Assembly (NCBI GenBank): GCA_037382465.1 | Contig: JARRPX010000030.1 | Location: 1-46,859 of the forward strand | Direction of reading: 5' to 3' | Length of the DNA stretch: 46,859 bases | Origin: Anaerolineales bacterium | Lineage (GTDB): Bacteria > Chloroflexota > Anaerolineae > Anaerolineales > E44-bin32 | Part shown: piece by piece, positions 23,522 through 46,859 of the stretch | Position numbering within the stretch: the stretch's first letter is position 1 | Layout: every line of letters starts with the position of its first letter | Translations under genes and position numbers: made by a program | The notes under the pieces: generated by a model | Seen by the model: the letters and a program-made list of their open reading frames with translations, nothing else | What the model was told of the DNA's origin: nothing | The model's database searches: none

Positions 23522-25249
23522 GTGACGAAGAAAAAAGGAAAACGTTCTTCGCGGCAATGGCATCTTGTTGATTTACATTTGCATACCCCGGCTTCGAGTG
23601 ATTATCAAGAACCGGAGATAACCAATCTGGATATCCTGCGCAGGGCGGTCGCCCGCGGGCTGGATGTGATCGCTTTCACGGATCACAACACCGTCGCCGG
23701 ATACCGGAATATGCAGGAAGAGATCGCCCAGCTCGAATTGTTGGAAGGTTTGTCGCGATTAACGGATGAAGAACGAGAAGTTCTGAGAGAATATCGGGAG
23801 TTATTGAAGAAGATTCTGGTGCTGCCAGGATTCGAATTCACCGCAACGTTTGGCTTTCATATCCTGGGGATTTTCCCACCGGAAAAACCGGTTCGAGAGC
23901 TGGAACACCTCCTGCTGAATTTGAACATCCCCGCCGATCGATTGGACCAGGGTTCGGTGACCGTAGGCGCCAGCAGTGATGTGTTGACCGCCTATAAGGT
24001 GATCGATGACGCGGGCGGAATCGCCATCGCAGCCCACGCCAACTCCACGAACGGCGTCGCCATGCGGGGATTCAGCTTCGGCGGCCAGACGAAGATCGCC
24101 TATACCCAGGATCCACACTTGATGGCGCTCGAGGTAACCGACCAGGCGAAAAAGGGCCGGCGCTCCACGGCAGCGTTTTTCAGTGGAACCAAGCCGGAAT
24201 ACCCGCGCCGGATGCACTGCATTCAGGGCTCGGATGCCCATCGTTTGCGGACCGATCCGCAGAATAAGAAAAATCTGGGCATCGGCGACCGGGCGACGAG
24301 AATGTTGCTGTCCGAAGTCAGCTTCGAGGCGTTGAAGGACCTCTTTGCCAGCAACGACTTCGCCCGCACGCGGCCCCATTGGCCGGCGGAGAAAGAAGAA
24401 TTCGATTTCGTCCTGCAGGCGCGCGACGAAGGTCCCAGCATCATACAGGATTTTCACGAAAGTATGACCATACGCGGCGGCAGGTTGTATGCCGTCATCG
24501 CCGACGTTTGCGCATTCGCCAACACCAACGGCGGAACGCTGTTCATCGGCGTCGGTGTGGATTCAAAGAAAGAACCCCAGGGTATCGCCCGTCCCTCCGC
24601 TTCAATCTCACAGCTGCAGCAGGAACTTGCGAAACGGATCCATCCCTCACTTTCTTGTGAAGTGGACGTTCAAGAAAGCCAAGGGAAGAAGATCATCCGC
24701 GTTCTGGTGCCTCGCGGCGAAGATCCGCCCTATGCTGTGGATGACAACAAGATCTACGTTCGTGACGAAGCGGATACGGGTCTTGCAGTGCGCGATGAAA
24801 TCGTGCAGTTGGTTTTACGCGGCCAGGACCGGCACGTGCGCGAAAAGGCTGCTGAGCCGAAAGCGCCAGGCGTTAAAGACGCCGAAGTGGGCATTGCCCC
24901 TCCGAGAACGGGCGTGGAAGTCGTGGATTCCGAGGAACGAAACGGTACCCGGTATTACACCATGCGCGATCTGCGCAACGGAAACGTGGTCAAAAACGTG
25001 ACCAAGTCCTCTGCGCGGCGCCTGTGGCACTACGCCATCAAGCAGGTGATGAGTCTCCCGAAAGACCTGAACAAGGCTCCCATTGCGTGGCAGGGCGACA
25101 TCGGAGTCTTGCACGAACAGCGTCGCGGCAAACGCAAACGCTACGATCTTGCCCAACGTACATCGGGCGGAATTCGAGTCTATTTCGGGGTCACGGAAGA
25201 TGGAATCGAAGACGAATGGAAGCGCTTGGTGGGGGTCGATGGCGAATAA
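23522..25249 (+). CDS. PHP-domain and AlbA_2 (Schlafen-type) fusion protein
   Basis: The GTG start is supported by TTAGGAGA upstream and gives 575 residues. Residues 13-285 are a PHP domain with the metal motifs HLH (19-21), FTDHN (52-56), an internal GFEF, AAHANS and SDAH (237-240). Residues 285-430 match an AlbA_2/Schlafen-like nucleic-acid module: [16 protein letters not shown] (FANTNGG at 332-338) followed by [16 protein letters not shown]. Residues 440-575 form a C-terminal region I do not recognise ([40 protein letters not shown]) that is basic and may bind nucleic acid. The likely role is nucleic-acid processing or phosphoester hydrolysis. No partner enzyme is evident beside it. Confidence 0.8.
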
Positions 25250-30056: not shown

Positions 30057-31013
30057 ATGATACGCGTTTCGCTGTTTATGCGGAAAGAATGCAAGCTTTG
30101 TGACGAAGTGAAGATCGAACTTGAGGAATTGAAGTCGGAGTACCCGCACGAATTGGTCGAGGTCGACATCGATAGCGATCCCATCTTGCAGGACCATTAC
30201 GCCGCCAAGATCCCGGTTTTGAAGGTCGGCCCTTATACCCTCGAAGCCCCATTTGACGAAACCCAACTGCGCGTGACGCTGGCTGCCGCGCAACAGGGAA
30301 GAACGCACGAAAAAGTGCCCGACGAGGACCATCGTGAGCGGGCGGTAAGTATGCACAAAGTGCTGCTTTCTCTGTCCAAACACTGGTTGGCCATTTTCAA
30401 CTTGCTTGTGTTCATGTACGTCGGGCTGCCTTTTGCTGCACCGGTAATGATGGAGTATGGCGCAACTCGTCCAGCCAGATGGATCTATGCCCTCTATTCA
30501 CCGCTTTGCCATCAACTGGCTTTTCGATCGTGGTTCCTGTTCGGGGAACAGCCGGCGTATCCCCTGGAGATCGCCAATTCACACCTCGGATCCTACGGTG
30601 AGGTCACAGGCATGAACGAGAACGATCAATGGGAAGCACGCGAGTTCACCGGAAACGACCGGCTGGGATATAAGGTGGCGCTCTGTGAACGGGACGTGGC
30701 GATATACGGCGGAATCTTCCTCAGCGGGCTGCTTTTCGCCGTTTTACGGAAACGCATAAAGCCGCTCCCCATTGGGTTTTGGATACTCATCGGCATCCTG
30801 CCGATCGCCATCGATGGTGGATCGCAGCTCCTCGCGCAACTTCCCCTTGGCTTCCTCACGCCCAGGGAAAGCACTCCGTTTCTGCGTACGCTAACCGGGC
30901 TGCTCTTTGGCGTGGCGAACGTCTGGCTCGCCTATCCATATCTGGAAGAAACCATGCAGGAACTGCGAGTGATGGTCTCGATGAAGCTGGCCGGCGCCGG
31001 CGAATCGCTTTGA
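30057..31013 (+). CDS. Glutaredoxin-like domain fused to a DUF2085 membrane domain
   Basis: Residues 1-80 form a thioredoxin fold of the glutaredoxin-like type with the CxxC site ECKLCDEVK (C12, C15) and the cis-Pro loop KIPVLKVG. From about residue 105 to 318 comes a polytopic domain matching DUF2085: YSPLCHQLAFRSWFLFG, KVALCERDVAIYGG, DGGSQLL and STPFLRTLTGLLFG are the characteristic segments, including conserved Cys and His. The DUF2085 function is unknown. The linker is charged and probably cytosolic, so the glutaredoxin domain faces the cytoplasm. Neighbouring ccdA suggests a membrane thiol-redox role, which is inference. Ribosome site GAAGGTAGG. Confidence 0.82.
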   Translation: MIRVSLFMRKECKLCDEVKIELEELKSEYPHELVEVDIDSDPILQDHYAAKIPVLKVGPYTLEAPFDETQLRVTLAAAQQGRTHEKVPDEDHRERAVSMHKVLLSLSKHWLAIFNLLVFMYVGLPFAAPVMMEYGATRPARWIYALYSPLCHQLAFRSWFLFGEQPAYPLEIANSHLGSYGEVTGMNENDQWEAREFTGNDRLGYKVALCERDVAIYGGIFLSGLLFAVLRKRIKPLPIGFWILIGILPIAIDGGSQLLAQLPLGFLTPRESTPFLRTLTGLLFGVANVWLAYPYLEETMQELRVMVSMKLAGAGESL

Positions 31014-32644: not shown

Positions 32645-35062
32645 TCAAGCCTTGCTTTGCGCGTAGGAGATCTGGTGCAATCCGGATGCGTTGATGCGCC
32701 AGAGGGCTTCGAAAGCTGAATCCTTGAGGAACTGCTGGTTGGATTTGAGGGCTTGTTGGAGTTCGAGACTCATTTCCTCGGCCGCGGTGTTGCCGATCGC
32801 TTCGAGTGCGGCAACCTTCTCCTCATCCTTGCCTTTGTTCAGGGCCTGGCGAAGCAGCTCCAAAGACGCCTTTCCAGGGGCAATCGCGAGCCCTTCACGC
32901 TTGGCGAATTCCACCAGCCACGGTGTCGTGGATAACTCCGTTTTCAGGGAGTAGACTTTCCAGGGTGGATTTTGAATGCGTTCGAGCGCTTCCGCTGCTG
33001 CACCGCGGACGATCCATTGATCGTCTTCGAGATGCATCGTCTGGAGTAGTTCGGGTATCCAATCCTCCGGGATGCGGGCCAGTCCGAACACCGCAGCGCG
33101 GCGGGTGAGGATATTTTCCACTTCGATCGCATCGCGCAGCATGTTGATGCTTTCGCCCGGCTGCGCGGCGAGAGCTTCGGCAACGGCCAGACGGACGGCT
33201 TCCTCTCCGTCGAGCAGGATTTTACCTATGCCCTCGAGTGCCGGATTCGTTCCGATGGCCGCCAAAGCCAGACAAGCCGCTTGCCGGACGTGCAGCTCCC
33301 GATCTTGATCCACCGTATCGAGCAGACGCTCGATCGATTCCTCGTCCTGAACGCCGCCAAGGCCCAGCGCGCCCAGAATTCGGCTGATGCGGTCTTCCGA
33401 AGCCAACAGACGCCGAAACAGGATTGCCGTTGACGGGTCTTCGGATCGAGTCAACGCATGGACGGCGCGCAAGCGCAAGCCGTATGGTTTGTCACTCGAA
33501 TTTGCCAGCGTAGCAAGCGAGCGGAGGATATTCGCTCTCCAGGGTGCTTTGGCCGGCGCCGCGCGCAGCCAGCGGGCTGTGATGAACAGGTTGGAATTGA
33601 GGGGATCGTCCCCTGCACCGAGATATTGACCCACGACTTGGGCAAGGTCACCGCCCAGCGCAGCGTAGAAACCCAGCGAAGTTTCGGCGGGTGTCCAGCC
33701 TGGTTCGAACACTTGTTGCGCCAAACCTTGGGACAGCATTGCCCGGGCACCCAAATAGGCGCCGATAGCCGGCACGGTGAACGAGATATGATTGTTCGCC
33801 CGACGTATCAGGATGCCGGCGGATATGAAGTCTTTTGTCGAGGTACCGCGGCCGATGGATCGTTCGGAGACGATACCCCGTCGTTCGTTGAGCCAATTCA
33901 GGCCGATGGCTTCTGCTTGCGGGCGTTCGTTGGGTGACAGCAGACGAGCGAGGTAGGCGTCTATGTTTTTCGTTGTCGTGGTATCTTTTGCGTCGCCCAT
34001 GTACGCCGACCACACACGCAGTGTCATTTCCAGGGGAGTCAGCCCGCGCGCCAGGTTGGAGAACCATCCCGAGATCAAGCTCGGGTCAACGTCGTACATT
34101 CTTTTCTTGGGCAGTAGCGGCCGAATGTGCTGTTGCCAGGCCTGGCCCCATTTCGCCAGGAACATACTCCGGTCATGCTCGGTCCAGGGCGCGATGGCGA
34201 CGGGCGCGAGTCCGGCATGGACGATCCCGTCGTAATTCCTGGCCGGCCCACTGGCGATGATACGCACGTTGGGAAAAGCCATCTGGAGATCTCCGAGCCA
34301 TTCGGTGATGGGTGTGATTTCTTCGACCGTGCATTCGTCCAGCCCATCCAGCAGGAGAAGTGCCTTCCCCTTTCGAAATAGTGGACGTAGATAGTTCGGT
34401 ATGCTTGAAGCCAGATTGGAGGAGACCGTTTTCTGCACCGCCGGAATGAGTACGTTGAGTGGGTCTTTCTCCGACCGGCGACGGAATTCCAGGTCGGCGG
34501 CGTGAACGAATATCGGAGTCATCTCCGCGGCGATTCCCGCATCCGGCGATTTGTTCAGTGCCAGGATGGCGAAGTGTGCCAGAGCGAACGTTTTTCCGCT
34601 GCCGAGTTCCCCCGTGATCATGAAGTTGGCGCCCTCGGACAGTGCGTTTGCGATGGATATCGATGGGGCGTGATAGATGCCGGATAAATAATTCCAATCG
34701 GGGAGGTTGGGGAGTACGGCTAAAGTGTATTCCGGAATCGGATCTGTGCGGACGGGATCGGCGGGGATCGGTGGAGCAAGCAGATGTGGAGGGACGGCAA
34801 TCTCGCTAACCTTGAACAACGCCTTCGATGCGTGCAGCATTTCCATGCGTTCGAGTAAATCCAGTTTGTAGGGGTCGCCGGATTTTCCGGAAATAGCGCC
34901 GCTGATAGATTGAATAACGGAGTAGATGTATTCAAAGACGTCAGAGAAATTGACACCGATTTTTTGGATTGCGAACACCAACACGGCGCCCAGAATCAAG
35001 CCGGTGATCAATTCCGGCCAATCGATCCAACTTCCATACAGCTTCCGTAATAATTCACTCAT
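32645..35062 (-). CDS. Membrane-anchored NACHT NTPase with HEAT repeats
   Basis: The 805-residue protein has one N-terminal membrane helix (about 17-33, ITGLILGAVLVFAI), a linker, and a NACHT-type STAND NTPase: Walker A GELGSGKT (151-158) and Walker B LLLLDGLDEC (235-244) with the Asp and Glu pair typical of NACHT. After the motor come roughly seven HEAT/PBS-lyase-like repeats (about 490-790; VRQAACLALAAIG, RRAAVFGLARIP and RGAAAEALERI are examples). Such proteins oligomerise on sensing a trigger; bacterial NACHT proteins include anti-phage effectors, but no effector nuclease is fused here. It starts 6 nt after the zinc-ribbon gene, so both are in one transcript. Confidence 0.85.
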   Translation of the reverse strand: MSELLRKLYGSWIDWPELITGLILGAVLVFAIQKIGVNFSDVFEYIYSVIQSISGAISGKSGDPYKLDLLERMEMLHASKALFKVSEIAVPPHLLAPPIPADPVRTDPIPEYTLAVLPNLPDWNYLSGIYHAPSISIANALSEGANFMITGELGSGKTFALAHFAILALNKSPDAGIAAEMTPIFVHAADLEFRRRSEKDPLNVLIPAVQKTVSSNLASSIPNYLRPLFRKGKALLLLDGLDECTVEEITPITEWLGDLQMAFPNVRIIASGPARNYDGIVHAGLAPVAIAPWTEHDRSMFLAKWGQAWQQHIRPLLPKKRMYDVDPSLISGWFSNLARGLTPLEMTLRVWSAYMGDAKDTTTTKNIDAYLARLLSPNERPQAEAIGLNWLNERRGIVSERSIGRGTSTKDFISAGILIRRANNHISFTVPAIGAYLGARAMLSQGLAQQVFEPGWTPAETSLGFYAALGGDLAQVVGQYLGAGDDPLNSNLFITARWLRAAPAKAPWRANILRSLATLANSSDKPYGLRLRAVHALTRSEDPSTAILFRRLLASEDRISRILGALGLGGVQDEESIERLLDTVDQDRELHVRQAACLALAAIGTNPALEGIGKILLDGEEAVRLAVAEALAAQPGESINMLRDAIEVENILTRRAAVFGLARIPEDWIPELLQTMHLEDDQWIVRGAAAEALERIQNPPWKVYSLKTELSTTPWLVEFAKREGLAIAPGKASLELLRQALNKGKDEEKVAALEAIGNTAAEEMSLELQQALKSNQQFLKDSAFEALWRINASGLHQISYAQSKA

Positions 35063-35068
35063 ACGGCG

Positions 35069-35770
35069 TCATCCTGCATACAATATGCGCCCGCATTGGC
35101 GACAGCGAATCAGATCATCACCGGTGCGGATCTCTTGGCGGATCGACCGCGCCAACTCTACGCCGCACGCACTGCAGCTCGAATCTCGTTCCAATGTGAC
35201 CACCATACCGGAGAAGCGTTTGCGTAAGGATTCGTACAACTTGAGATCCTCTGCGGTGACATCGGACACCGCCGCTTCTCGTTCGGCTTCGCAGCGGCCG
35301 ATTTCCATCGTCAGTCGTTCTCGTTCCTTAAGCAAGTCCTGGTGCAGGGATGCACGTGAATTCTCGCTTTGCGTCAGATCGTCGTTTGCCGCATCGAACG
35401 TCTTCTCGGCGTCGTCCAACTCGATCATAGCATCCAGGAGACGATCTTCAAGGGTCACTAAGTACCGTTTAAGGGATTCGGATTCCTGTTGGAGATCTTG
35501 AAGTTCCTTGGGATTTCGAACCGTACCACTGTAGAGGGTGCGCTCAGTTTGATTGACCTTGTCGCGCTGTGCACTGACAGCATCGTCGGCCTTGGTGTGC
35601 GCTTTGCGTGCAGCCTCGAGTTTACCCTTCTTGGTTTCGAGCGTTTTCTTCTTCTGCAGAATCTCTTCTTCGTCTGCGAGGGTTTGATCGATTTCCTCGA
35701 TACGCGCATGTGCGCGGTCGAGACTCAGGTCGATTTGCTGCAGGCGATAGAGGCTTGAAACGCGGCTCAT
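35069..35770 (-). CDS. Coiled-coil protein with C4-type zinc ribbon (DUF164 family)
   Basis: The start at 35770 (MSRVSSLYRLQQID) is chosen over an in-frame ATG 36 nt upstream, because a TATAAT ends just 6 nt before it. The 233-residue protein is mostly a long antiparallel coiled coil (about residues 5-180, rich in Glu, Lys, Arg and Asp), followed by a zinc ribbon with two CxxC pairs (SCSACGVEL and IRCRQCGRIL). The family, sometimes called zinc-ribbon domain protein or CdsZ, is linked to nucleic-acid or translation functions in a few species, otherwise unknown. It heads an operon with the NACHT-HEAT gene. Confidence 0.88.
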   Translation of the reverse strand: MSRVSSLYRLQQIDLSLDRAHARIEEIDQTLADEEEILQKKKTLETKKGKLEAARKAHTKADDAVSAQRDKVNQTERTLYSGTVRNPKELQDLQQESESLKRYLVTLEDRLLDAMIELDDAEKTFDAANDDLTQSENSRASLHQDLLKERERLTMEIGRCEAEREAAVSDVTAEDLKLYESLRKRFSGMVVTLERDSSCSACGVELARSIRQEIRTGDDLIRCRQCGRILYAG

Positions 35771-35776
35771 GCAGGG

Positions 35777-35806
35777 ATTATAGACGCAACTGAGACTTTG
35801 GAGCAA
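35777..35806 (-). promoter_or_regulatory. Promoter with TATAAT 6 nt before the zinc-ribbon gene (leaderless candidate)
   Basis: Minus-strand TTGCTC, about 18 nt, a perfect TATAAT, then CCCTGC and the ATG. There is no ribosome site, so the mRNA most likely starts with the AUG. Confidence 0.55.
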
Positions 35807-35873: not shown

Positions 35874-37439
35874 ATGAGCCAAAAGACCGAGCGGCGTATC
35901 GCATTCGGCCTTTGCCTTCTTGTTGCATTGGGGACCGTCGCTCCGTACGCCGTTGCGATCCAGGCCGCAAGGCCAAATACGTTCACGGGCTTTTTAATCA
36001 ACCCCGTCGATGGATTTAGTTACCTGGCGAAGATGCGTCAGGGTGCTGAGGGGGAATGGCTTTTCCGTCTTCCGTATGCGCCCAATCCGGGGAGTGCGGC
36101 CTTTTTATACGGCTACTACATATTTCTCGGGCACGTTGCCGATTTTCTACAGATTCCACTGATTACCCTTTTTCATGCAGCGAGATTTTTAGCCGGTATT
36201 GGCTTGTTCTGGCTGGGTTTCTATTTCTTCAAGACTTTCTTGCAGAATAAATTCGAAACCTGGGCTGCTTTTCTGCTTTCGTTATTCGGCGCTGGAATGG
36301 GTTGGATCTTCGGCCTTCTGAGGATTCAAACGAGTGACCTTTCAATCCCGGAATCCATTCCTTTCCAGACGGCATATACCAACGCGCACTTTCCGTTGGC
36401 GAACCTTCTGCTGCTTGGCGCCGTTCTCGCGATCGTGAAGGAGGGCAGCCTTCGCAAACGAGTTCTCGTTGCCGGGGTGTGCGGTTTGCTTCTGGCGATC
36501 GTGCTGCCTTTCTCCCTGGCAAGTCTCTTTGTCTTCCTGATCCTGTGGCTGGTTTGGGAGAGCGACATTCTTCTTCACAAACAAAACTGGCGGGGTGCCT
36601 GGAGGAACAATCGGGCCCGCTTCACGTCTTTTCTGGCGTTGGCAGTCGGTGCGGGGCCGTTCCTGCTGTATGATTTATGGCTGACGAAAAATCACCCCGT
36701 CATCGCGCAGTGGACGCAGCAGAATCAAACCCCCTCGCCGCCGATATCCGCCTATTTGATCGGCTACAGTCCGGTTCTCTTGTTGGCCATCGCCGCCGCC
36801 GTTCGCCGCGACAGTCGATCCTCAGCGAGGGGAAGATTGCTGATCGTCTGGTCAGTCAGCAATTTCCTGTTTCTCTACGCACCGTTCGATTTGCAGCGTA
36901 GACTCTCACTCGGCCTTTACTTTCCCCTGGCCTGTCTCGCCGCGATCGGGCTGAACACTATCGTCTCGAATCCTGCACGTCGACGTCTGCTCTTGATCGC
37001 CGCGATCCTCATCACGTTCCCCTCGAACCTGGTCGTGGTCCTGACCGGGATCGACCGCGTGAATCGATCGGACCCCAATTTCATCTACCGGCCGGGTGAA
37101 GTGGCCGATTATTGGTTGCTCAATCTTATCCCGCATGGCTCGTTGATACTCGCTGCGCCGGATACCGGCAACCGTTTGCCGGCGTTTGCCGACGTGCGCG
37201 TGCTGTATGGTCATCCGTTCGAAACGCCCGACGCCGGGCCGCAGGAAGCGTTGATCGACGAGTTATTCCGTTGGGACGGCCCCGGCGATGTGGGTTTCGA
37301 ACGTTTGATTTCCCTCGACGTGGATTACGTGTATTACGGCTGGCGGGAAAGAAGCATCGGCTCCCCGACGTGGCTTTCATTATGCACGACGGTATTCGTG
37401 GGACACGACGTTCGCATCCTACGGGTGGACGACTCATGA
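35874..37439 (+). CDS. Polytopic membrane protein A1 (GT-C-like, function unknown)
   Basis: The 521-residue protein has about ten to twelve membrane helices and no name I recognise. It shares a common plan with the gene at 39577: an acidic motif after the first helix (VDGFSYLAKM here, NDGNSYIAKM there), an internal LQRRL, and the ending DTGNRLPAFADVRVLYGH and YVYYGWRE. An acidic residue in the first external loop is the catalytic hallmark of GT-C glycosyltransferases, so a lipid-linked sugar transferase is a reasonable guess. It ends with ATGA, overlapping the start of a YfhO-family gene. Confidence 0.65.
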   Translation: MSQKTERRIAFGLCLLVALGTVAPYAVAIQAARPNTFTGFLINPVDGFSYLAKMRQGAEGEWLFRLPYAPNPGSAAFLYGYYIFLGHVADFLQIPLITLFHAARFLAGIGLFWLGFYFFKTFLQNKFETWAAFLLSLFGAGMGWIFGLLRIQTSDLSIPESIPFQTAYTNAHFPLANLLLLGAVLAIVKEGSLRKRVLVAGVCGLLLAIVLPFSLASLFVFLILWLVWESDILLHKQNWRGAWRNNRARFTSFLALAVGAGPFLLYDLWLTKNHPVIAQWTQQNQTPSPPISAYLIGYSPVLLLAIAAAVRRDSRSSARGRLLIVWSVSNFLFLYAPFDLQRRLSLGLYFPLACLAAIGLNTIVSNPARRRLLLIAAILITFPSNLVVVLTGIDRVNRSDPNFIYRPGEVADYWLLNLIPHGSLILAAPDTGNRLPAFADVRVLYGHPFETPDAGPQEALIDELFRWDGPGDVGFERLISLDVDYVYYGWRERSIGSPTWLSLCTTVFVGHDVRILRVDDS

Positions 37440-39580
37440 AACGCCGCGATCTCCGCTTGATTCTCGTTCCCCTCTTCTTCCTTCTCGTCTGCGTACTCTG
37501 GCTGGTAAAAATCATCCCGCGTCCCGGTGATCTGCTCGTCTGGCGGGGCGCGGAATACTCCGACATCCTCATATCGCATTGGCCGAACGCCTATTTCCTG
37601 CGACGGAGCCTGCAAACCTGGACACAGGTCCCACTGTGGAACCCGATGATTCTCAGTGGAATGCCCTTTGCCGCCGATCCGCTTTCCGGCCTCTGGTATC
37701 CGCCCAATTGGCTGGCGGTGGTCCTGCCGATTCAACTTGCTTTCAACCTGTTGTTCTGGGTGCACCTCGCCTGGGCGGGCTGGGGGATGTATTGTTGGAT
37801 GCGCTCGCTTGGGTTCGGCAATGCAGGCGCGCTCACCGCCGGGTTGGCGTGGTGTGGAGCGCCGAAATGGTTTGCGCATATCGGACTGGGCCACTTCGGT
37901 TTTGTCTGCGCCGTGAGTTGGACACCGTGGGTGCTGCTTCTGCTGCGAAAAGCGATGAATGCAGAACGCAGCGGCGAAAGGCGTTGGGTGCGGTGGAGTG
38001 CTTTGACGGGCGTGATCTTTGGTCTCTCGTTTATTGCGGATCCGCGCTGGGCCGTTCCACTTGCTTTGCTCTGTCTGGCCTACGCGATCCATTACACACT
38101 CACCGCTGAGTCGCCTGAAGCACGTATCAAAGCCTCGATCAGATCGCTGCTTACAACCGGGTCCATATCCGCTATCATTGCCGTGGGGTCGGCTGCGGTG
38201 TTGCTCCTGCCCATGGGTGAACTCGTGGTCAACTCCACGCGGTCCCTGCTCACGATCCGGGATATGACCACGCTGTCGATGCCGTATTCTCGGCTGGTCG
38301 GCATCCTGGTGCCGTTTTTCGATCAGCCGGAATGGCTTGCGTACGCCGGAATCGGAGTCCTGCAGCTGGTGCTCGTGGCGTTGATCGCAGAGCGGACGAA
38401 CGCCCGTTTCTGGGTTGGGGTCGTAATCGCGTCGTGGCTTTTGGCGCTCGGAGACCAATTCCCACTCTATCCGCTTTTGATCCGAATCGTTCCCGGAATG
38501 AAGCTGCTCCGCGTTCCGCCACGATTTCTTTTTGTAGCTGCGTTCGGACTGGCCGTTCTTGCAGGGATCGGCATGGACCAAATCGCACGGGCGAGGTGGC
38601 GTACGAAGGATCTCCCTGCGATACACCTTGCGTCGTTGGCTCTCAGCGCGCTCGTCGTAATGTTCGGCGTCGGATTGTGGCTGGCCACACAAGAGGGATC
38701 GGGGATCTTGCTTGGCGTCGCTCTCGTCGCCGTGCTGGCTTTCCTGTGGGTGAATATTTCAACGCAAAATCGTCTCCAGCCTCGTTCGCTGGTAATTATT
38801 TGGGTGCTGCTCATCGCCGCAGATTACTCTCTCGTCGGCTTCCGCGCGCTCGAGGTGCAGCCTATGACTGGAAAATTGAGCGAGCGATCCGGTGTCGCCC
38901 GTCTCGCGGCGAAACTTCAAGGGGAGCGGACCTTTTCCCCTTCCTACAGCATCCCGCAGCAGACTGCGGCTTTATTTGAGATCGAACTGGCCGATGGCGT
39001 GAATCCCTCGCAGCTTCGACGTTATCAGGAGTATCTGGCTTCGGCTGTTGGTTTCTCGTCGCGAGAATACTCTGTTTCTCTTCCGCCTTTCCCGACAGGC
39101 GGTCCTGGACAAGCCAGAAGCCTCGATTTGAACATGGAGAAACTGGGGTATTTAAGCGTCGCTTCGATTGTCTCGGATTTTCCGATAGAAGCGGATGACG
39201 CCCCGCTCGAGACAGTCGTCGATGGCGTGTATATCTACCGCAACGAAATGGTCAAGCCGCACGCCTGGATGATCTCCGAAGATGCGGCGATCGAACCCGA
39301 GACAATCGAAATTTCATTGTGGACGCCCAATCGCATCCTGCTCAACGCAACCGGTCCTGGCCGGCTGATTCTGTCCGAAGTAGACTATCCGGGCTGGTAT
39401 GTCGAAATCGATGGTATTCCCGGCGAAATCCAACGCGTATACGAACTTCTGCGCAGCGTTGACGTACCGCAGGGCCGGCACGAAGTCGTTTTTTCCTTCG
39501 AGCCTCCGTTGGTTCGCTGGGGTGGATTCATAAGCGTACTCACTCTATTCTTTATTGCGCTCCTATGGGTAAAACGATGA
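37436..39580 (+). CDS. YfhO family membrane protein, copy 1
   Basis: The ATG at 37436 overlaps the upstream stop (ATGA), so I prefer it to an open frame extending far upstream. The 714-residue protein has about twelve helices and the YfhO C-terminal beta region: PGRLILSEVDYPGWYVEIDG and VDVPQGRHEVVFSFEPP. An acidic first-loop segment (GAEYSDILISHWPN) fits the GT-C architecture. YfhO in Bacillus glycosylates lipoteichoic acid, so a role in decorating a cell-envelope polymer is likely but unproven. It ends with ATGA into the next gene. Confidence 0.78.
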   Translation: MKRRDLRLILVPLFFLLVCVLWLVKIIPRPGDLLVWRGAEYSDILISHWPNAYFLRRSLQTWTQVPLWNPMILSGMPFAADPLSGLWYPPNWLAVVLPIQLAFNLLFWVHLAWAGWGMYCWMRSLGFGNAGALTAGLAWCGAPKWFAHIGLGHFGFVCAVSWTPWVLLLLRKAMNAERSGERRWVRWSALTGVIFGLSFIADPRWAVPLALLCLAYAIHYTLTAESPEARIKASIRSLLTTGSISAIIAVGSAAVLLLPMGELVVNSTRSLLTIRDMTTLSMPYSRLVGILVPFFDQPEWLAYAGIGVLQLVLVALIAERTNARFWVGVVIASWLLALGDQFPLYPLLIRIVPGMKLLRVPPRFLFVAAFGLAVLAGIGMDQIARARWRTKDLPAIHLASLALSALVVMFGVGLWLATQEGSGILLGVALVAVLAFLWVNISTQNRLQPRSLVIIWVLLIAADYSLVGFRALEVQPMTGKLSERSGVARLAAKLQGERTFSPSYSIPQQTAALFEIELADGVNPSQLRRYQEYLASAVGFSSREYSVSLPPFPTGGPGQARSLDLNMEKLGYLSVASIVSDFPIEADDAPLETVVDGVYIYRNEMVKPHAWMISEDAAIEPETIEISLWTPNRILLNATGPGRLILSEVDYPGWYVEIDGIPGEIQRVYELLRSVDVPQGRHEVVFSFEPPLVRWGGFISVLTLFFIALLWVKR

Positions 39581-41178
39581 ACCGGAATGAGCTGAAGTGG
39601 ACCTTAGGCCTGGCGGGGATTCTGATCTTGATCACCTCGCTGCCGTACTTTTTGGGTTTCGCCAATCAAAATTCAGAGTGGGTGTTTTCGGGGTTTGTCT
39701 TCGGCGTCAACGATGGGAATTCGTATATAGCCAAGATGCTTAGCGGTTCTTCCGGCGCCTGGCTGTTCAAAACGCCGTATTCCAGTCTGGATCAGCGCGG
39801 CGTGATCGCCTTTTTGCCCTACCTGCTGCTTGGCAAACTCGCCTCGGGCGAAGCTATGCACCTTCAATTGGTATCGATCTTCCACCTGTTTCGAGTGTTG
39901 ACGATCCCGCTGGTCGTCCTGGCGGTGTATCAGTTCATCTCCCTGTTCATCGAATCAAGTTTCTGGCGTCGATGGGCGACGGTGCTGGTTACATGCGGCG
40001 GCGGGCTGGGCTGGCTACTCGTTCTCTCGGGCAATGCGGCGTGGCAGGGCGATCTGCCCCTCGATTTTTATTCTCCGGAGTCGTTCGGCTTCCTGGCCAT
40101 CTACGGCCTACCGCATTTGGTGCTGGCCAGGGCTTTGCTGCTTTTCGGCATGACCAGTTACCTGTGCGCCTTCGAATCTGCACGCCGTGGCTGGATCGCG
40201 GGCGTTTGTTTCCTCGGCCTCACGTTGGTACAACCGCTCTCCGTCGTCACGGCGTTTGTGATCATTGGCGTGCATCAGTTGCTGCTTTTACTTCTCTTCA
40301 TCCGCCGGCGCGCGATGGATGAATGGCGACCGTGGTTTTTCGCCGCACTGCGCAGCGGAATACCTGCCTTACCGCTCGTGATCTATATCGGCATTTCCTT
40401 CACACAGGATCCTTTCCTGAAGAAATGGACCGAACAGAATCGCATTCTCTCGCCGCATCCGGGTCATTATTTGTTTGCTTACGGACTACTTCTGATCCCA
40501 ATGATCGCCGGCATACGCAGCCAGTTTCGGCGTCATTGGGCTGCTGCATTGCTGCCGCTTGCCTGGGTCATTGCATTCCCGTTTCTGGCGTATGCTCCGC
40601 ACAACCTGCAACGCCGCTTGCCGGAGGGCATTTGGGTTGCCATCGTTCTCTTTGCGGCGCTTGGCTTTTCGGAATGGAAATTCAATCGAAGCACGGCGAA
40701 GCGCTGGATCATCGCGGTCGTTACGCTGTGTAGCCTGCTTTCATCGCTGATCCTGATCCTTGGCGGGATCCGCCAGGTACTTGTGCCGGACGCGCCTATC
40801 TACCAGCCGGCGGAAGAGGTAAACACTTTCAAGATGCTGGCACGTATCGTCGAAACAGACTCGGTCGTCTTGACCGGGTTCGAGACGGGAAATGCATTGC
40901 CCGCCTACGCGCCGGTGCGCGTCGTCATCGGCCACGGGCCGGAGAGCGCGGATTTGAGTCTGCTCGAACCGCAAGTCGAGCGTTTCTATGCGGGCGCGAT
41001 GAACGAAGACCAGGCGGATGATTTTCTTTCAGCGTGGAAGGTAAACTACGTCTGGTACGGTCCACGTGAAAAGGTGTTGGGCGGCTGGGAACCGGTATCG
41101 AATCTCGCCCTTGAATTGGTGCTCGAAAACGGCCAATATTCTGTATACCGGTACCGGCCGGATGCTTCAGGTCGTTGA
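39577..41178 (+). CDS. Polytopic membrane protein A2 (paralogue of A1)
   Basis: The ATG at 39577 overlaps the previous stop and is preferred to an ATG 12 nt upstream. The 533 residues contain about eleven helices. It is clearly homologous to the product of the gene at 35874: NDGNSYIAKMLSGSSGAWLF, EQNRILSPHPGHYL, APHNLQRRLPEG, GFETGNALPAYAPVRVVIGH and VNYVWYGPRE align with the corresponding parts there. The order A1-YfhO-A2-YfhO suggests a tandem duplication. Function is unknown; GT-C enzyme is a guess. Confidence 0.65.
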   Translation: MNRNELKWTLGLAGILILITSLPYFLGFANQNSEWVFSGFVFGVNDGNSYIAKMLSGSSGAWLFKTPYSSLDQRGVIAFLPYLLLGKLASGEAMHLQLVSIFHLFRVLTIPLVVLAVYQFISLFIESSFWRRWATVLVTCGGGLGWLLVLSGNAAWQGDLPLDFYSPESFGFLAIYGLPHLVLARALLLFGMTSYLCAFESARRGWIAGVCFLGLTLVQPLSVVTAFVIIGVHQLLLLLLFIRRRAMDEWRPWFFAALRSGIPALPLVIYIGISFTQDPFLKKWTEQNRILSPHPGHYLFAYGLLLIPMIAGIRSQFRRHWAAALLPLAWVIAFPFLAYAPHNLQRRLPEGIWVAIVLFAALGFSEWKFNRSTAKRWIIAVVTLCSLLSSLILILGGIRQVLVPDAPIYQPAEEVNTFKMLARIVETDSVVLTGFETGNALPAYAPVRVVIGHGPESADLSLLEPQVERFYAGAMNEDQADDFLSAWKVNYVWYGPREKVLGGWEPVSNLALELVLENGQYSVYRYRPDASGR

Positions 41179-41192
41179 TTTGAAGATCCGGA

Positions 41193-43511
41193 ATGGAAGA
41201 CGGAATGGAAGGTAGACTCGAGCGCGTCTCCGAAGCATTATCTCGCCTTCGGATCAAGGATCGATTTGGATGGTTTTTGGTCATCCTCGGGCCGTCGATT
41301 CTATTCGGCCCAATGTTGGTCCGCGGGCGTGCGTTGTTTTGGGGCACTCCTGTTCTGCAGTTCGTCCCGTGGCGTACTTACGCATTCGAGATTCTCAAGC
41401 GAGGCCACCTGCCGCTCTGGGATCCACTTCTGGGCATGGGGGCTCCACTGTTTGCAAATTACCAAATCGCACTCCTGTACCCTCCAAACGTCCTGCTCTA
41501 TTTCGTAGGTCCGATCTGGGGCCAAGGACTCCTCGTGGGACTGCATTTGATCTGGGCGGGTCTGGGGATGTATTTCCTCGCGCAGCGTTTGGGATTGGGG
41601 GTACTGTCGAGGGCAATCGCCGGAATGGGATTCAGCCTTTCCGGTTATCTCGTCGCCCGCAGCGGATTTCTGTCGATCAACGCTGCGGCAGCGTGGCTTC
41701 CCTGGATCGTTCTTGCGGCCGATCGCCTCGTTCACCTGAGCCGAAGTGCTGCAGACCGAAGTGAGATCATAAAATCGGGATGTTTGCTGAGCATCGTGTT
41801 GAGCTTTCAGTGGCTGGCGGGACACGCTCAAACTGCCTGGTACACCGCGACCGTCCTCGTCGCCTGGGTATTATGGAGGTTGGCCGGCAGCAGGGATCTC
41901 AAGCAAGCAATAAAAGTCGTGTCGTATGTTGGGCTTGCTGGTTTGGTTGCCTTTGCACTCTGCGCCGTTCAGTTGGTTCCCACACTCGAGTACACGCTGC
42001 ATTCGTATCGGGCGGACACGTTGGATGCCGAATTCGCCTTGAATTACTCGTTTTGGCCCTGGCGGCTGCTTTGTCTGGTGCTGCCCGGCTTGTTTGGCAG
42101 TCCCGCTCTGGGCGATTATTGGGGATACGGACATTATTGGGAGGACGCCGTCTATTTTGGCGTGCTGCCGTTCCTGCTCTCGGTTTACGCCGTGATTTCG
42201 GGCTGGCGGAAGAAAAGCGATCGACGGGGCACGATCCGTTTCTTGACCGTTCTGGGCGTCTCTGCGCTCGTCCTGGCGCTGGGCAGAAACACACCGATCT
42301 ATCCTTTCCTGTTTCAACCTGTGCCGACGTTCAATATGTTCCAGGCCCCTTCGCGTTGGAACATCGTCTTCGTGTTTTCGTTTGCATTACTCGCTGCTTT
42401 CGGCATCGACCGGTTGAAAAAACCAACCGGGCGTGCCCTGTATTGGATACGGCTTGGAACGGCGGGAGCCGGTATCATCGGCGTGGCGGCGGTCGCATCG
42501 ACGAAGCTGCTCGGTGGTGTCGAAGCGAGTTTCGTGCGAGCTTTTATCCTCGCCGGAGTCTGGTTCGTCACTTCCGGAATCCTGGTGCTTTTGAAACCTG
42601 AACGTACATCGCTGCGCTGGAATCTCCTGGCAGGGTGCATCGTCTTGCTCGATCTTCTCGTCGCCAGCCGCGGCTTGATTCCTTCCGTTTCACCATCCTT
42701 TTTTGAGGATCCAGGCGTTACGATGAAGTCGTTGGGAAGCGATCATCGTGTCTACATGGATGCAGAAGTCGAGGACGAACTCAAATTCGAGTGGACGCAC
42801 CGCTTCGCTACGTACTTGAACAAGGAGGATTGGCATCTCGTGCGTAAATACGGTTTACCCGACACGACTCTCCTGGATGGTATACCCTCGGCGAATAATT
42901 TCGATCCGCTTCTGCCCCAGCGGTACGTCCTGTGGATGAATGGGCTGCAGGATGTATCGAGCGCCCACCAGACCAAGCTGCTTGCGCTCATGGATGTGCG
43001 CTGGCAGGCCGTCATCGATCCATCCGGAGACATGTCATTGATCTATAGGGAGATTCCCGCTCCCCAGCGCGTGCGTTGGATTTCGCGCGCGATTCTCGCG
43101 CCTTCATACGACTATGCATTCGAGACGGTCATGGACGAGGAATTCGATGTGCAGGAGACCGTCGTCCTCGAATGGGCGTTCGACACGGAGGAAGTCGATA
43201 AGGTGGAGAGGGGAAGTGCCTCAATCGTAGAAACCGACGACCCCAACGTGGTAATCATTCGATCGATCGCTCCGGTCGACGGCTGGGTCGTGCTGTCGGA
43301 CACATGGTTTCCGGGATGGGAAGCCAGCATTGATGACGTTCCGACGGAAAACTACAGGGCGGATTTTCTCTTTCGAGCGGTCCGGGTTCCCGCCGGAGAA
43401 CATTATATTCGCTTCGAGTATCGACCATTATCACTCCGGATCGGTTTTTACCTGAGCATCATGGCAGTTTGCCTGTTGATCGTGCAGGGATGGCGATGCT
43501 TTCGAGACTGA
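41193..43511 (+). CDS. YfhO family membrane protein, copy 2
   Basis: The 772-residue protein has about thirteen helices and a clear YfhO layout: ALFWGTPVLQFVPWRTYAFE and HLPLWDPLLGMGAPLFANYQ near the N-terminus, a middle with DYWGYGHYWEDAVYFGVLPF, and the C-terminal SDTWFPGWEASIDD and VRVPAGEHYIRFEYRPLSL. It starts 14 nt after A2. It is likely an envelope-polymer glycosyltransferase; substrate unknown. Its stop overlaps the next gene by 16 nt. The gene is about 60 residues longer than copy 1. Confidence 0.8.
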   Translation: MEDGMEGRLERVSEALSRLRIKDRFGWFLVILGPSILFGPMLVRGRALFWGTPVLQFVPWRTYAFEILKRGHLPLWDPLLGMGAPLFANYQIALLYPPNVLLYFVGPIWGQGLLVGLHLIWAGLGMYFLAQRLGLGVLSRAIAGMGFSLSGYLVARSGFLSINAAAAWLPWIVLAADRLVHLSRSAADRSEIIKSGCLLSIVLSFQWLAGHAQTAWYTATVLVAWVLWRLAGSRDLKQAIKVVSYVGLAGLVAFALCAVQLVPTLEYTLHSYRADTLDAEFALNYSFWPWRLLCLVLPGLFGSPALGDYWGYGHYWEDAVYFGVLPFLLSVYAVISGWRKKSDRRGTIRFLTVLGVSALVLALGRNTPIYPFLFQPVPTFNMFQAPSRWNIVFVFSFALLAAFGIDRLKKPTGRALYWIRLGTAGAGIIGVAAVASTKLLGGVEASFVRAFILAGVWFVTSGILVLLKPERTSLRWNLLAGCIVLLDLLVASRGLIPSVSPSFFEDPGVTMKSLGSDHRVYMDAEVEDELKFEWTHRFATYLNKEDWHLVRKYGLPDTTLLDGIPSANNFDPLLPQRYVLWMNGLQDVSSAHQTKLLALMDVRWQAVIDPSGDMSLIYREIPAPQRVRWISRAILAPSYDYAFETVMDEEFDVQETVVLEWAFDTEEVDKVERGSASIVETDDPNVVIIRSIAPVDGWVVLSDTWFPGWEASIDDVPTENYRADFLFRAVRVPAGEHYIRFEYRPLSLRIGFYLSIMAVCLLIVQGWRCFRD

Positions 43512-44542
43512 AACGCTCTTGGCCGCTGTGGGTCACTTTCATCGTTGCCGGCGCGTACATCGTCGCGCGGCTGGCTGTTTACGATTGGAACGTTGTGGCG
43601 CTGGCGGAAATTGGCACGCAGTTCTCGGAGGGCGATCCAGCAGGAACCGAGGGCTACGATGGGCAGTTCACCTACTACATCGCGGTCGATCTGAATCCCG
43701 CCACGGTCTCCGATAAACTCGATGTCCCGGCTTATCGCTATCAGCGAATCCTGCTGCCCGCTTTGGCGCATTTCTTTACGGGAGGACACGCAACCGCAAT
43801 TCCTTGGGCGCTTTTGGCGATCAATTTACTCGCCCAGACACGATATGCATTGAGCTATGGGTTGTGGGTAGGTCTGGTTTCCGCCGTAGGCCTGCAACTG
43901 CATGAGCCACTGGCCTACGGCCTGGCAGCCCTCGCCTGGCTGGCCCGGAAACGCGGTAAGTCGGTTTTGAGTGCGGTTTTGATCGGGCTGGCGCTTTTCG
44001 CCAAGGAAACCATTCTGATTATTTGGCTTGCGCTGTTCCTCTCCGACCTGATCGGAAAACGCCGCTGGAAGGCGGTTTTGCCCTGGATCGTCGTGGGTGT
44101 CCTTTACGCCGGCTGGCAGGTTTGGTTGTGGCGCGTTTTTGGCGCTCCCGGTATTGGCAGTGGAGGCGCCAAATCGACGCCGTTCGAGTGGATCCCGTTG
44201 ATGGGCCTCTGGCGCATCGGCTTTGTGTCCCTTCCGGCGCTGGGATTGTTTATCGTCATCTTCGGGCCGACGATTTTTCTTCCTGCGATCTGGGGAATTT
44301 GGGTCTCGGCGCGGGAGCTTTGGCGGCGGCGAATCGCCGCGGAGAACGTCAACCTTCTCATCAACGGCATGGTGATTCTGTTCCTGCCTTTTTCAACGAT
44401 TCGGGAACCGCTGGGACTTTTACGCTTTGCGAGCGGCTTCGTGCTCGCGGTTTTGCTATTCGCGGCTCGCAACAAGCTGCACAAACCGCTAAACTATACG
44501 CTCTTATGGATCCCGCTGATCGCAGTGCTGCTCAACGGTTGA
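43496..44542 (+). CDS. Polytopic membrane protein, GT-C-like, function unknown
   Basis: The ATG at 43496 has AGGGATGG just upstream; two other in-frame starts (43490 and a TTG at 43469) are possible. It overlaps the preceding gene by 16 nt. The 348 residues hold about eight or nine helices and an acidic external segment EGYDGQFTYYIAVDL, followed by PAYRYQRILLPALAH, a pattern common in uncharacterised membrane proteins that look like GT-C enzymes. It is the last of five linked membrane genes and probably shares their pathway. Confidence 0.6.
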   Translation: MLSRLKRSWPLWVTFIVAGAYIVARLAVYDWNVVALAEIGTQFSEGDPAGTEGYDGQFTYYIAVDLNPATVSDKLDVPAYRYQRILLPALAHFFTGGHATAIPWALLAINLLAQTRYALSYGLWVGLVSAVGLQLHEPLAYGLAALAWLARKRGKSVLSAVLIGLALFAKETILIIWLALFLSDLIGKRRWKAVLPWIVVGVLYAGWQVWLWRVFGAPGIGSGGAKSTPFEWIPLMGLWRIGFVSLPALGLFIVIFGPTIFLPAIWGIWVSARELWRRRIAAENVNLLINGMVILFLPFSTIREPLGLLRFASGFVLAVLLFAARNKLHKPLNYTLLWIPLIAVLLNG

Positions 44543-44636: not shown

Positions 44637-44687
44637 GTATCGTCCGTTGTGAGGTATGCTTTAATCTCATCAGCGAATGGAGTATCG

Positions 44688-45634
<947 letters not shown>

Positions 45635-45635
<1 letters not shown>

Positions 45636-46859
45636 TGACGAGTCGTGCTCGTGTCGTTGTTGCACTTTTCACAGTCAGCATATTGGGGGCGTTTATCACC
45701 GGGCGAGACCTTTTCTATAACCTGGTTTACCTTTGGGGTTTTCTCCTCGTAAGTTCATATACTTGGGCGCGGTTGACCTTGCTCGGTGTCCGGCTTGAGC
45801 GGGAAGCATTCTCCACGCGTGCCCAGGTCGGCCAGTTGTTCACGGAACGGTTTACGTTGGTGAACGAGAGCCGGATTCCCAAGATCTGGATCGAAGCAAG
45901 GGACAAATCCGAATTGCCCGGATATAAAGTCACCTCGACGGTGGCGGGGCTTGGGCGCCGCGGGCTGGACGATCGGAGTGGTCATCGTGCTTCCACCGTT
46001 ACGATCAACCTCGGGTCACATCATCGTCGAACCTGGATCCAACGTACGGTGTGTACACGGCGCGGACGCTATAGAATTGGCCCGTTGGAGCTGCATTCCG
46101 GGGATTTGTTTGGGTTGTTCCCGGTGAAAAGGGATGTCCCTTCCTCCCAACATCTGCTGGTCCTGCCGATGGTCGTCCCCATCCGGAGATTTTCGACTCC
46201 GACCGGCCGAATTTCAGGCGGAGAGGCGATCCGAAAACGCACGCATCAGGTGACTCCCAACGTCGCTTCGGTCCGTGATTATTCGGCCGGCGACAACCTC
46301 AATCGCATCCATTGGCCTTCAACGGCAAAACGTCAAAGGCTGATCGTAAAGGAATTCGAGCTGGATCCACAAGGAGAAGTGTGGCTGCTTCTCGATGCCG
46401 CTCGAAAGAATCGATATGTGAAAACGGATCGACTCGACCAGGACGAGCGAAGCGTGTGGATCGTCGGGGAGACGCGCCTTCCGCTTGCTTCAGATGAATA
46501 CGGCATCGCTGCCGCAGCTTCGCTTGGCATTCATTTTTTGGATCTCGACCGATCGGTGGGGCTGATCGCATACGGTGACGCCAGGCACGTGATTCAACCA
46601 GATCGTGGAGAAGCGCAGCGTTATCGGCTGCTGGAATCTCTGGCAGTTTTGAATGCGGACGGTGTCCACGACCTTGATCAAGTCTTGCGTGTCGAATATC
46701 CCCGGATTCCTCGAGGATCGACGGTGATCGTCATCACCGCTGCTGCGGGTCCGGTCGTGATGAGCGCAATCCGCAGACTGATGATCGGCGACCGCCGCCC
46801 GATCCTGGTCTCCCTGGACGCCAGCTCTTTCGGTGGACCGGGTGACTCGAGTGCCCTGC
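45635..46859 (+). CDS. DUF58 domain protein, 3' end cut by window
   Basis: The frame is open from the ATG at 45635 to the last base, about 408 residues, and no stop occurs. The first 50 residues give two membrane helices (ARVVVALFTVSILGAFIT and LFYNLVYLWGFLLVSSY). The DUF58 motif is VRDYSAGDNLNRIHWPSTAK at about 213-232, after a beta-rich section with CTRRGRYRIGPLEL. Downstream the VWA-like fold begins (EVWLLLDAAR). DUF58 proteins pair with MoxR, often with a transglutaminase next; that gene would lie outside the window. The role is not established. Confidence 0.9.

Follow-up and report, generated by a model that had tools for sequence, protein, structure and literature searches.

Two co-varying pairs of predicted GT-C-fold proteins at a conserved Anaerolineales locus: an unnamed membrane family interleaved with two YfhO proteins, one apparently lacking the expected catalytic aspartate

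YfhO proteins and GT-C enzymes are known kinds of protein, and transmembrane glycosylation by YfhO has already been described in Firmicutes (PMC5836110, PMC8035078). In GT-C_A enzymes the first juxtamembrane helix carries a shared, essential aspartate at its tip (PMC12041299), and for the smaller GT-C enzymes a split of sugar transfer and acceptor recognition between different proteins has been speculated upon (PMC8035078). Among the papers searched, none treats YfhO together with Chloroflexi. Here we analyse a stretch of 46,859 nucleotides from an Anaerolineales bacterium of the Chloroflexota (the window; contig JARRPX010000030.1, assembly GCA_037382465.1), in which two YfhO genes alternate with two genes of a second membrane protein family, termed A. 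The features of the locus are:

35874..37439, plus strand: A1, unnamed membrane protein of predicted GT-C fold, 521 aa
37436..39580, plus strand: Y1, YfhO family (PF09586), 714 aa
39577..41178, plus strand: A2, second A paralogue, 533 aa
41193..43511, plus strand: Y2, second YfhO (PF09586), 772 aa
43469..44542, plus strand: C, optional fifth membrane protein, a relative of NF046093 below its cut-off
44649..45635, plus strand: MoxR-type AAA ATPase (Pfam AAA_3, E 2e-64, and synteny), conserved neighbour downstream
at 45635, plus strand, after the MoxR gene: DUF58 gene (domain match and synteny), also conserved downstream
35069..35806, minus strand: CT398-like coiled-coil/C4 zinc-ribbon protein (Pfam PF24481 and PF02591, and synteny)
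32645..35062, minus strand: NACHT-like NTPase with HEAT repeats (HEAT_2, E 1e-20, and synteny)

The gene coordinates bear out the head-to-tail run of A1, Y1, A2, Y2 and C, with short overlaps or gaps, that the original prediction had described. ATGA overlaps are found at both the A1/Y1 and the Y1/A2 junctions, 14 bases separate A2 from Y2, and the start of C lies inside the 3′ end of Y2, its position being uncertain (TTG at 43469, or ATG at 43490 or 43496). The zinc-ribbon and NACHT-like genes, both conserved neighbours upstream, diverge from A1, and the NACHT match of the protein at 32645..35062 falls just below the Pfam cut-off (E 3e-5). The locus shows no excess of promoter-like sites over shuffled sequence. 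Elsewhere in the window, one protein (30057-31013) combines a glutaredoxin-like domain with DUF2085 and adjoins a DsbD-like gene, and another (23522-25249) has both PHP and Schlafen AlbA_2 domain matches.

The relatives of the window are Anaerolineae, mainly Anaerolineales, and include Anaerolinea thermophila, Leptolinea, Levilinea, Bellilinea, Longilinea and Ornatilinea as named carriers. An A1-like protein is present in 47 of 61 genomes (that of the window and 60 relatives), and the arrangement across the order places the NACHT-HEAT and zinc-ribbon genes on the minus strand, followed on the plus strand by A1, Y1, A2, Y2, in some genomes C, and then MoxR and DUF58. Y1 follows A1 in 59/66 loci and, in the set of loci centred on A2, immediately precedes A2 in 61 of the 69 testable ones (A1 in 6), whereas downstream of A2 the gene Y2 is found directly in 64 of 75 loci and within 6 kb in 6 more (70/75); all these counts are of loci from related genomes, which are not independent events. 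The recurrence of this gene order in dozens of genomes of Anaerolineales places the arrangement far beyond chance, and the order-wide arrangement of four GT-C genes is new here. Some loci carry wider spacings between A2 and Y2, namely gaps of 0.8 to 4 kb in L112, L116, L121, L124 and L165, and approximately 3 kb with other genes in L098, which lies on the same contig as L041. The MoxR and DUF58 genes (44649-46859), a common envelope-linked chaperone pair, stand after the cluster in many genomes, and the NACHT/HEAT and CT398-like genes flank A in another order of the class as well (L191, where A lies beside a Bac_transf gene).

In a phylum-wide draw, an A match above 200 bits was obtained in 61 of 301 genomes. 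None of the out-of-order loci that were fetched carries a YfhO gene beside A, as judged with a profile of this order's YfhO, which distant YfhO proteins could escape. Thus, the recurring A-YfhO adjacency that had been predicted is confirmed throughout Anaerolineales, but does not extend to A outside the order. The scanned neighbours of out-of-order A instead include four PMT_2 GT-C proteins, one sub-threshold Wzy_C match and one Bac_transf protein. Because A stands here without YfhO and near such genes, it is a GT-C family that belongs to polysaccharide loci in general, and the link with YfhO is a feature of this order. The PMT_2 genes directly adjoin A (L171, L170, L176 and L083, all outside the cluster), and GT-C doublets may be a general habit of the A family.

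A1 and A2 share 28% identity across 506 residues (E 7e-46), and every motif named in the original prediction is found in both, in agreement with the proposed homology of the first and third genes. The view that A is an unnamed family likewise stands, as neither protein gives a Pfam match below E 0.1 or an NCBIfam match below E 1, and no Pfam or NCBIfam model matches any of ten divergent A proteins sampled phylum-wide either. Membership of A in Pfam STT3 (PF02516) was tried and rejected, as neither A1 nor A2 matches that model at E 1. The conserved residues of A1 are D46 in the first juxtamembrane helix, E160, H172, QRR at 341-343, H447 and E450, and A2 carries the same invariant residues. D46 is present in 100% of A1 (n=80) and of A2 (n=95) sequences, and the QRR motif and the glutamate of H-x-x-E also occur in every one of these. 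Part of a protein of 2681 aa (L235:890-8932), in which two DUF2298 regions are combined with a PMT_2 region and TPR repeats, shows a weak match to the C-terminal portion of the A profile.

The AlphaFold2 models of A1 (pLDDT 96.1, pTM 0.94) and Y1 (pLDDT 93.7) support the GT-C fold proposed for both families. The A1 model superposes on yeast STT3 with Z 21.3 over 456 residues, followed by DPY19 (Z 20.4), AglB (19.8), AftA (19.4), ArnT (17.3) and PglB (17.0), all strong matches being GT-C enzymes. The Y1 model resembles STT3 (Z 21.6) and also AftD, the latter with Z 19.4 over 554 residues that span Y1 residues 7 to 714 and include the C-terminal part. Both models display the GT-C transmembrane fold with juxtamembrane helices after TM1, and by homology to A1 and Y1 the same fold is expected for A2 and Y2. 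In direct profile comparison, A and YfhO give a probability of 11%, and their alignment does not follow the register of the shared fold. For A, which has neither a name nor a Pfam model, the analysis supplies a fold, a predicted catalytic residue and a conserved place in the genomes of a bacterial order that has been little studied; this unnamed GT-C family with its confidently predicted fold is new here.

These structural matches also bear on whether A is a bacterial oligosaccharyltransferase that glycosylates proteins at the cell surface and resembles STT3 not only in fold but also in function. STT3, AglB and PglB are among the top matches, they align with A1 and Y1 over the full-length fold, and for A the likeness extends to the C-terminal domain, which on its own superposes on AglB-S2 (3vu0) with Z 8.2 and an rmsd of 2.4 over 110 residues. 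A sequence-only search with the A profile also ranked 3vu0 first, with a weak E of 0.53, in an alignment that sets the GN motif of A opposite the WWDYGN of AglB. However, the stretch of A aligned with the WWDYG of STT3, AglB and PglB is varied around G(N) and has no WW, and this lack of conserved tryptophans argues against sequon recognition. Moreover, A has no Pfam STT3 match, and scores nearly as high as those of the oligosaccharyltransferases are reached by DPY19, AftA and ArnT, whose donors are lipid-phosphate monosaccharides. We thus regard an oligosaccharyltransferase function as highly unlikely.

Y1 and Y2 exceed the curated PF09586 cut-off of 28.5 bits with 59 and 66.3 bits, respectively, and are 24% identical (E 1e-31), so that the second and fourth genes are both YfhO, as had been claimed. 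They differ at the site of the GT-C_A aspartate, which is present in A1, A2 and Y1, and absent from Y2. The A1 model places D46 within the first turn of helix 44-58, and in the Y1 model D43 opens helix 43-62 at the tip of the first juxtamembrane helix. An aspartate occupies the D43 position in all 73 unique Y1 sequences readable by pattern (4 more went unread), and in 96% of Y1 by alignment. In the window's Y2 the first-loop aspartate is replaced by T52, in a GTP motif, and the 83 unique Y2 sequences carry Thr (65), Leu (7), Ile (6) or Ala (5) here, with no Asp or Glu (0/83), whereas the 12 unlinked YfhO proteins with a readable motif keep GD at this position. The beta-rich C-terminal domain and last TM helix are present in Y1, and Y2 retains its large C-terminal domain with the YfhO C-terminal signature, including YPGW. 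An order-wide YfhO without the expected catalytic aspartate would, judging from these alignments, be new here, although Y2 might use another acidic residue in place of the one lost.

To investigate whether the genes act together, distances among 39 loci were compared for the four genes (Mantel p), with partial r controlling for the other two genes, both divergent neighbours and composition. Partial r is 0.51 for A1-Y1 and 0.41 for A2-Y2 (each p 0.0005), whereas Y1-A2, which are equally adjacent on the DNA, give 0.05 (p 0.31), and the remaining gene pairs 0.13 to 0.15. A rank-based version and an earlier simple-distance version give the same picture. This evidence for two co-varying pairs, A1-Y1 and A2-Y2, is new here and lends support to the prediction that each A partners its neighbouring YfhO, here the one downstream, although joint replacement or linked inheritance of gene segments could also cause such a correlation of distances. 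We favour, with a probability of roughly 55%, an envelope-glycan GT-C module of A1/Y1 and A2/Y2 pairs, in which Y2 is a non-catalytic partner of A2.

The same data weigh on a reading of the locus as four independent GT-C enzymes, physically unpaired, that would extend the same envelope glycan one after the other by a sugar each, their adjacency reflecting no more than a shared pathway. Separate glycosyltransferases are lined up in many polysaccharide loci, A homologues elsewhere have no YfhO nearby, and Y1 or A1 can be lost singly with the rest kept. Several lineages that keep A1 lack Y1, among these a genome (G046; 96% complete, 2 contigs) with the order A1-A2-Y2-C, in which Y2 gives the only YfhO matches and Y1 is present in another genome of the same genus; conversely, L075, L078 and L163 have Y1-A2-Y2 without A1 at the locus. 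These single losses imply that neither pair is obligate. Independent action is nevertheless rather unlikely in our estimate, as it does not account for covariation that singles out A1-Y1 and A2-Y2 and is missing between Y1 and A2 despite their adjacency, and loss of the aspartate from 83/83 Y2 would be odd for a stand-alone enzyme.

In the favoured module of two pairs, A1, Y1 and A2 would take sugars from polyprenyl-phosphate carriers at the outward side of the membrane and add these to an envelope polysaccharide or glycolipid. The genes would act as the pairs A1/Y1 and A2/Y2, and in the second pair A2 would carry out the chemistry, whereas Y2, with its presumed GT-C fold, large outer domain and no catalytic aspartate, may position the acceptor or stabilise A2. 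A more specific version is a two-protein GT-C enzyme, in which A2, with its short outer domain, is catalytic and Y2 is the acceptor or scaffold chain, A1 and Y1 both being potentially active; we put this forward as a tentative possibility. If true, it would represent the split about which PMC8035078 speculates. The locus lends itself to testing, in a natural setting, whether two chains of a GT-C enzyme can share out sugar transfer and acceptor binding, which has been asked for teichoic-acid glycosylation but has so far had no answer. Records of Anaerolinea, Leptolinea, Levilinea and Bellilinea carry the cluster, so that material for such tests exists. Proteins are less likely as acceptors. The cluster continues into a Bac_transf gene in two relatives (L105 and L114), and in L114 GT4 and Wzy_C genes lie beyond it, a continuation that fits an envelope polysaccharide. 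Protein C is a sub-threshold relative of NF046093, the AZOBR_p60025 cell-surface glycopolymer family (E 1.6e-35, 122 bits against a cut-off of 150 bits), for which a literature search on AZOBR_p60025 returned no paper. Its YDGQ motif is kept in 29 of 34 relatives, and C itself is absent from many Anaerolineaceae.

The original prediction had derived the A-Y-A-Y order from duplication of a two-gene unit at this locus followed by divergence, an origin to which the homology of A1 with A2 and of Y1 with Y2 would also be suited. The trees, however, run counter to it. In the YfhO tree Y1 forms one clade (99/97) and Y2 another (100/99), unlinked YfhO proteins of Anaerolineales group with Y2 at 96/97 support, and forcing Y1 and Y2 into one clade is rejected (AU p 0.0058). 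For A, in which A2 forms a clade of its own, a protein from another part of the phylum (L172) groups with A1 (99/96), so that A1 and A2 are not exclusive sisters, and forcing them as such is rejected (p 0.009), whereas one clade of A1 and A2 plus three out-of-order relatives is not rejected (p 0.46). Local tandem duplication is thus unsupported, and we consider it very improbable; what is left of it is an ancient co-duplication of A-YfhO before the order arose, which is possible. More probably, the two pairs would have been put together from different A and YfhO lineages.

No STT3-family match is present in the window's genome. Weak C-terminal A-profile matches fall on proteins that carry DUF2298 (PF10060) in 3 of 4 examined, whereas A itself has no Pfam match to DUF2298. 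The mycobacterial arabinosyltransferases AftA and AftD, which are polymer-modifying, have the GT-C_A fold in common with the proteins described here, AftD resembling Y1 and AftA resembling A1 (Z 19.4), but at 10-15% identity, and nothing in our data points to arabinan. With respect to the CsbB-GtcA-YfhO systems that act on LTA and WTA in Bacillus, Listeria and Staphylococcus, the teichoic-acid parallel drawn in the original prediction holds insofar as Y1 and Y2 share a Pfam family with the YfhO of these systems, and is otherwise loose, as the scanned neighbours of the locus include neither a CsbB-like GT-A C55-P-sugar synthase nor a flippase; the one GtrA-family flippase match in the genome lies unlinked on another contig (C2), beside an epimerase. 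Outward-facing GT-C transfer would be the expected chemistry in both (PMC5836110, PMC8035078). Unlike the CsbB-GtcA-YfhO systems, the Anaerolineales locus has two YfhO proteins, one of them without the catalytic aspartate, and an additional, unnamed GT-C family interleaved with these.
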